Shown here: piece after piece, positions 40,126-40,685 of the stretch
Layout of the letters: each line of letters begins with the position of its first letter
How positions within the stretch are numbered: position 1 is the stretch's first letter
NCBI RefSeq assembly: GCF_001939115.1
Contig: NZ_MQTZ01000042.1
Span: forward strand, 124,001-188,000
Source of the DNA: Leptolyngbya sp. 'hensonii'
Lineage (GTDB): Bacteria; Cyanobacteriota; Cyanobacteriia; GCF-001939115
DNA length: 64,000 nt
Direction of reading: 5' to 3'
Notes under the pieces: generated by a model
What the model was told of the DNA's origin: nothing
The model's database searches: none
Seen by the model: the letters and a program-made list of their open reading frames with translations, nothing else
Translations under genes and position numbers: made by a program

Positions 40126-40473
40126 ATGGAAGAGAAAATTAATTTGGATGATTTTGATGAGCATGATGTCATCTGTTTCAATGAGCATAATGTTTTTAAG
40201 ATGGGCAAACTTATGCCTGGAATAGAGGGTGCTATAAAAAGTCAGGATGTAGCAAATGCTTTTGTCAATGCATTACAAAGGCATGGTATAAGCATCAAAG
40301 TTGGGGAGATGCTTAACGATCGATTTCAAGATTGCTACGGTTGGTGGTTTACTGAAGGTGTAGGTTGCGAGATTTTGCAGCCCGGATCGAGCCGATGGAA
40401 GAAGGGCAAAGTGAAACTCAATTTCACCCTGGAGTTTTACCCAGAAGCTGAAGAGTGCATCCCACTTTTGTAG
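40126..40473 (+). CDS. KGK-domain protein, C-terminus altered by insertion of a small repeat element
   Basis: 115 aa as it stands. The sequence DEHDVICFNEHNVFKMGKLM near the N-terminus and SSRWKKGKVKLNFTLEFYPEAEE match the KGK family, which I know mainly from cyanobacteria and whose function is unknown. After FYPEAEE the frame enters a 137-bp inserted element and stops after CIPLL. If the element and one copy of the flanking 12-bp repeat are removed, the frame continues through 40605-40685 for 26 more codons (ESLPENDGHIEELEFPLDDI ...), giving a 136-aa protein. The core domain should survive, so this is a truncated rather than dead gene. Confidence 0.75.
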   Translation: MEEKINLDDFDEHDVICFNEHNVFKMGKLMPGIEGAIKSQDVANAFVNALQRHGISIKVGEMLNDRFQDCYGWWFTEGVGCEILQPGSSRWKKGKVKLNFTLEFYPEAEECIPLL

Positions 40474-40592
40474 CCCTCTCCCTAAATCCCTCTCCCAGAA
40501 CGGGAGAGGGACTTTGAATCTGGCTCCCCTTCTCCCAAAGAGGGAGAAGGGGCTGGGGGATGAGGGCAACCTTGCAAAACTGGGATGCTCTC
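40456..40592. mobile_element. 137-bp MITE-like repeat element inserted in the KGK gene
   Basis: The terminal inverted repeats are GCATCCCACTTTTG (40457-40470) and CAAAACTGGGATGC (40575-40588), with one mismatch. The interior is two GC-rich hairpins (CCCTCTCCCAGAACGGGAGAGGG and CCCCTTCTCCCAAAGAGGGAGAAGGGG types). It is flanked by perfect 12-bp direct repeats GAAGCTGAAGAG (40444-40455 and 40593-40604), consistent with a target-site duplication, and carries no coding capacity. It must have been mobilised in trans. The interior resembles repeats widespread between cyanobacterial genes. Confidence 0.75.
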
Positions 40593-40685
40593 GAAGCTGA
40601 AGAGGAATCTCTGCCTGAAAATGATGGGCATATAGAGGAGCTTGAGTTTCCTCTGGATGATATCAGGAAGGCGATGAATCAGTGA
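40593..40685 (+). pseudogene. Detached 3' end of the KGK gene
   Basis: The frame GAA GCT GAA GAG GAA TCT ... AAT CAG TGA codes EAEEESLPENDGHIEELEFP and then LDDIRKAMNQ. It has no start codon of its own at the front, continues the KGK frame exactly once the inserted element is removed, and the ending PLDDIRKAMNQ resembles KGK C-termini. Confidence 0.7.

Follow-up and report, generated by a model that had tools for sequence, protein, structure and literature searches.

The question raised at this locus is what kind of repeat element interrupts a KGK-domain gene of Leptolyngbya sp. 'hensonii', where this element begins and ends, and by which machinery it may have been moved. The window, i.e. the whole stretch of DNA that was analyzed, is 64,000 nucleotides long (contig NZ_MQTZ01000042.1, positions 124,001 to 188,000 of the forward strand), and coordinates given without a contig label refer to it.

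The interrupted KGK gene and the ends of the element

The gene, the element (a MITE) with its terminal inverted repeats (TIRs) and the target duplication (TSD) are composed of the following features, with the supporting evidence in brackets.

40126..40452, +: KGK-domain gene, 5′ portion with codons 1-109 (ORF listing; Pfam PF08872, E=6e-24)
40444..40452, +: left TSD copy, 9 bp, GAAGCTGAA (boundary fixed by other copies)
40453..40592, +: MITE, 140 bp, non-coding (other copies; folding z -8.4 for RNA, -7.3 for DNA)
40453..40470, +: left TIR GAGTGCATCCCACTTTTG (18-bp identity to the transposase-side IS end)
40473..40567, +: hairpin core, GCCCTC ... GAGGGC (not related to the inner part of the IS; occurs by itself and within a second MITE family)
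40484..40514, +: first internal hairpin, AAATCCCTCTCCC / GGGAGAGGGACTT (inverted-repeat search, folding)
40526..40552, +: second internal hairpin, CCCCTTCTCCC / GGGAGAAGGGG (inverted-repeat search, folding)
40575..40592, -: right TIR GAGAGCATCCCAGTTTTG (17 of 18 positions shared with the other IS end; G at position 13 kept)
40593..40601, +: right TSD copy, 9 bp, GAAGCTGAA (repeat comparison)
40602..40685, +: KGK gene, 3′ part cut off by the insertion, ending in PLDDIRKAMNQ followed by TGA (reconstructed 136-aa protein, homologue tails)

The KGK ORF now runs from 40126 to 40473 and is closed by a TAG (40471-40473) which lies inside the MITE. Deletion of 149 bp, that is the MITE along with one TSD copy, reopens the frame for 26 codons with the end PLDDIRKAMNQ and gives a protein of 136 aa, in agreement with the earlier note on this DNA. 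The same note had considered that the regained end fits the KGK family, and this view is borne out by the Pfam KGK profile (PF08872), whose score rises from 85.2 bits (profile positions 2-98 of 119) for the truncated ORF to 101.9 bits (2-118 of 119) for the reconstructed protein, and by the tails of KGK homologues of other cyanobacteria, for example ESPLDDIRQ. These intact homologues represent the unoccupied gene at the protein level. The restored frame and the profile match indicate that insertion of the MITE has truncated the KGK gene by 26 codons.

The earlier note was right in placing a non-coding inverted-repeat element between direct repeats in this gene, but its length of 137 bp, its TIRs of 14 bp and its perfect TSD of 12 bp had to be revised. 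The 12 bp GAAGCTGAAGAG are literally present on both flanks of the MITE. The extra GAG of this repeat is formed by the first three bases of the MITE itself, and the host sequence past the right TSD matches them by chance, for which the probability is 1/64. The GAG was assigned to the element because copies with differing flanks all begin with GAG(T/A)GCATCCCA, and therefore the MITE comprises 140 bp (40453-40592, + strand) and the TSD is the 9-bp GAAGCTGAA at 40444-40452 and 40593-40601. The ends that had been called exact were thus off by 3 bp, as all tabulated type-1 copies begin with GAG and the full-length ones are bounded by repeats of 8 or 9 bp. The TIRs are 18 bp long and complementary at 16 of 18 positions (GAGTGCATCCCACTTTTG / GAGAGCATCCCAGTTTTG). 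The reconstruction of the gene is unaffected by this correction, since the repeat-to-repeat spacing is 149 bp with either boundary.

In the ORF listing of the window, no reading frame of at least 40 aa lies wholly within the MITE. The fold of the element is stronger than that of shuffled sequences (RNA -86.3 kcal/mol, z = -8.4; DNA z = -7.3). Compensatory changes were seen in only 3 of the 42 pairs of the hairpin, because the core hardly varies. A known RNA family was rejected as an identity for the element, its matches in an Rfam search being far under the gathering thresholds.

Copies in the genome and the parent insertion sequence

The search for copies was done in the organism's own genome (5.94 Mb, 77 contigs) with this stretch as query; a search for copies with the same termini had been proposed in the earlier note. 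More than 20 full-length copies of the MITE with differing flanks were found elsewhere, and none of the observations that the earlier note had named as speaking against its reading was made. The type-1 copies were tabulated (n=25, 140-185 bp), and all of them start with GAG; their TSDs are of 9 bp in 14 cases and of 8 bp in 11, with 24 perfect and one having a single mismatch. A perfect 8-bp repeat abutting the fixed ends is expected by chance at about 1.5e-5 per copy, and such a repeat of 8 or 9 bp was seen in 24 of 25. Pairwise identity within the 140-bp class is 92-100%, with a mean of 97%. Three more copies split genes for XisH, Trypco1 and AbiU2-HEPN (L002, L003 and L014, at C39:13475, C53:4748 and C2:187233 of the same genome), and the joined frames give nearly complete Pfam domains. 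The longer copies (L016-L025 and L065; 159, 166, 174 and 185 bp) have modular extra segments in both core arms. The insertions L006, L010 and L011 appear to be situated within other short palindromic repeats.

The second search suggested by the earlier note, for an insertion sequence (IS) with the same ends, was also successful. By end-pattern search an ISKra4-family IS of 1182 bp was found in the same genome at C39:4095-5276. Its ORF of 275 aa matches the ISKra4 transposase profile NF033572 with 274 bits (cut-off 205; E=2.3e-81), and an upstream ORF of 78 aa is present in a different frame. A T-TTT-TTA heptamer occurs within the 78-aa ORF; in the frame of the 275-aa ORF it precedes the listed start but still falls in the part free of stop codons. 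From its sequence, the parent is a two-ORF IS of ISMich2 type with a predicted -1 frameshift. The assignment to the ISMich2 group was made on this frameshift organisation along with closeness to cyanobacterial ISs annotated as ISKra4.

The inverted repeat of the IS is 18 bp long with a terminal C. Near-identical fragments of the IS (98-100%) stop at the edges of many contigs, the pattern that a collapsed multi-copy repeat would give, and about eight copies were marked; on comparison of flanks, five pairs share duplications of 8 or 9 bp. The sole complete IS, on C39, has differing flanks that each find their partner at a different contig end, so that it joins the flanks of two insertions and is therefore an assembly join or a recombinant. 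Mutator-like ISs including the ISMich2 group are described with inverted repeats of 18-39 bp, a terminal cytosine and direct repeats of 8 or 9 bp, and two ORFs with a frameshift are reported for the ISMich2 group (PMC3942029). The parent IS resembles this group (ISKra4 family; p-MULT 4, Mutator-like) in transposase profile, two ORFs, 18-bp ends, 8-9 bp duplications and terminal cytosine, whereas the element in the window has no transposase and keeps just the terminal 18-21 bp. A 12-bp duplication had been called unusually long in the earlier note; this was a boundary error, and the length of 8-9 bp is that published for the Mutator-like ISs of the parent's kind (PMC3942029).

Origin of the element and of its hairpin core

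At 18 of 18 positions the left end of the MITE agrees with the IS end that lies on the transposase side, and its right end agrees with the opposite IS end at 17 of 18. The asymmetry at position 13, C versus G, is the same in the ends of both, and their TSD lengths agree (8-9 bp). Alignment of the MITE interior with the IS ends past the terminal 18-21 bp, and the interior is not alignable. The core of two hairpins occurs without the MITE termini in the same genome (the C60 copies) and in many other cyanobacteria. It is also carried by a second MITE family of this genome, which is 149 bp long, has the ends GGGTACATGTCACCTTTG / GGGAGCATGTCACTTTTG and is flanked by duplications of 8-9 bp (C65:15804-15952, C29:33158-33306, C45:49695-49843 and others; L208-L215); no autonomous IS carrying the ends of this second family was found. 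A third group of 99 bp has related ends and 8-9 bp duplications (C7:41617-41715, C44:1308-1406 and C25:5147-5245).

The element is almost certainly a MITE cross-mobilised by an IS of the ISKra4 family (ISMich2 group), because it shares the 18-bp ends, has matching TSDs of 8-9 bp, occupies many unrelated sites, has its parent IS in the same genome, and its removal restores reading frames. For its interior, capture of a hairpin repeat of cyanobacteria is the most likely source, and not a remnant of a deleted IS. The idea of the earlier note that a dispersed cyanobacterial hairpin had been captured as a MITE-type transposable unit holds. Judged from the sequences, ISMich2-type ends seem to have closed around an already existing dispersed hairpin on more than one occasion. 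The opposite order is also possible, in which the lone cores are decayed MITEs.

That the MITE arose from the IS by internal deletion is unlikely. Such an origin would account for both IS ends and the left/right asymmetry being kept, but similarity to the IS stops about 18-21 bp from each end, and the interior hairpin repeat is found elsewhere and in the second MITE family. A simple internal deletion was accordingly rejected, the core being a separate repeat found without IS ends; a variant in which deletion of the IS was followed by insertion of the hairpin is possible. It is also conceivable that the element is a dispersed palindromic repeat of REP or SDR type which has nothing to do with an IS, spreads by another mechanism and is flanked by a repeat through coincidence. 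The existence of the core alone, without MITE termini, in the C60 copies and in many cyanobacteria agrees with this, but the termini common to the IS and the duplications of 8-9 bp around nearly all copies make it very improbable. Least probable, and practically negligible, is the reading in which the target duplication is truly 12 bp long and the parent of the MITE is still to be found: GAAGCTGAAGAG is indeed repeated on both sides, but the other tabulated copies all open with GAG despite unrelated flanks and have 8/9-bp duplications, no tabulated copy of this genome starts at TGCATCCCA without the preceding GAG, and a parent IS has been found.

For cross-mobilisation by the ISKra4-family IS, the following course may be proposed. 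A full-length transposase would be made by frameshift and would bind both TIRs of the MITE, which would then be excised or circularised; excision or circle formation is reported for related families (PMC3942029). Insertion would follow on a cut staggered by 8-9 bp. It may be speculated that cruciform folding of the core aids excision or limits transcriptional damage.

Spread across cyanobacteria and relation to known systems

Among 390 sampled genomes of the same class, some match to the element was present in 223, many of them core-only, and near-full-length matches were present in at least 44. The pattern of end-core junctions occurs in Leptolyngbyaceae, Nodosilinea, Petrachloros, Kaiparowitsia, Stenomitos, Arthrospira and others, and many of these copies also have 8-9 bp duplications. 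ISs of the same group from Kovacikia, Microcystis and Nostoc are bounded by nearly the same ends and by 8-9 bp duplications; in cyanobacterial ISs of the ISKra4/ISMich2 group other than the parent, the ends GGGTGCATCCCA, GGGAGCATCTCA and GGGAGCATCCCA occur along with duplications of 8-9 bp. Among the matches listed, an ISKra4 transposase was detected in 31 of the 44 genomes with a near-full-length MITE and in 156 of 345 others (odds ratio 2.9, p=0.002, by statistics that ignore kinship), so the association of MITE and IS across the 390 genomes is only moderate. An ISKra4 transposase of the parent type was not detected in 13 of the 44 genomes with a near-full-length MITE among these matches, and in these the MITE may be moved by a more distant relative, or its mover may have been lost.

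In plasmid pTCL26-01_B of Nostoc sp. TCL26-01 (L240), an ISKra4-family IS lies between two annotated pieces of a type III-B cas10 gene, which it probably splits.

MITEs mobilised by resident ISs are well known, cyanobacteria included (PMC10969869, PMC11448079). The element is like the 187-nt MITE of Microcystis moved by an ISL3-type IS (PMC11448079) in being non-autonomous and hairpin-forming, in having a parent known by shared ends and in interrupting genes. The duplications are of 8 nt in the Microcystis MITE and of 8-9 bp in the present family; the ends (GGCTCTTCG) and the transposase family (ISL3) of the former are different. The core for its part behaves like the short palindromic dispersed repeats of cyanobacteria (GTAG repeats, PMC3733652). 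Unlike small dispersed or REP-like repeats, it has IS termini at its borders here, with target duplications outside them. Nezha of Zhou et al. 2008, going by the title of that work, is reportedly a cyanobacterial MITE, and it is said to have a similar size and to fold. Small dispersed repeats of cyanobacteria are reportedly the subject of Elhai et al. 2008. The core sequence was sought in open-licence literature, where the papers listed were all unrelated; the core has been assigned to no named repeat family. Descriptions of MITEs of the ISKra4 family, including the ISMich2 group, were not found in the open-licence literature searched, by which their absence is unproven.

As a tentative and rather doubtful possibility, a single MITE lineage with ISMich2-type ends around a hairpin repeat may have spread through much of the class, with many divergent ISKra4 transposases accepting nearly the same ends and the hairpin enclosed at least two times by different ends. 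If the hairpin was enclosed at least twice, then the hairpin itself would assist transposition or would be the form best tolerated by the host. The occurrence of the same core in two MITE families with different ends raises the question of whether the core contributes to mobility. The notion of an abnormal 12-bp duplication is corrected, and a hairpin element widespread in cyanobacteria is now provided with exact ends, a TSD length and a named parent, which allows repeats of this kind to be annotated as mobile and broken genes adjacent to them to be recognised.
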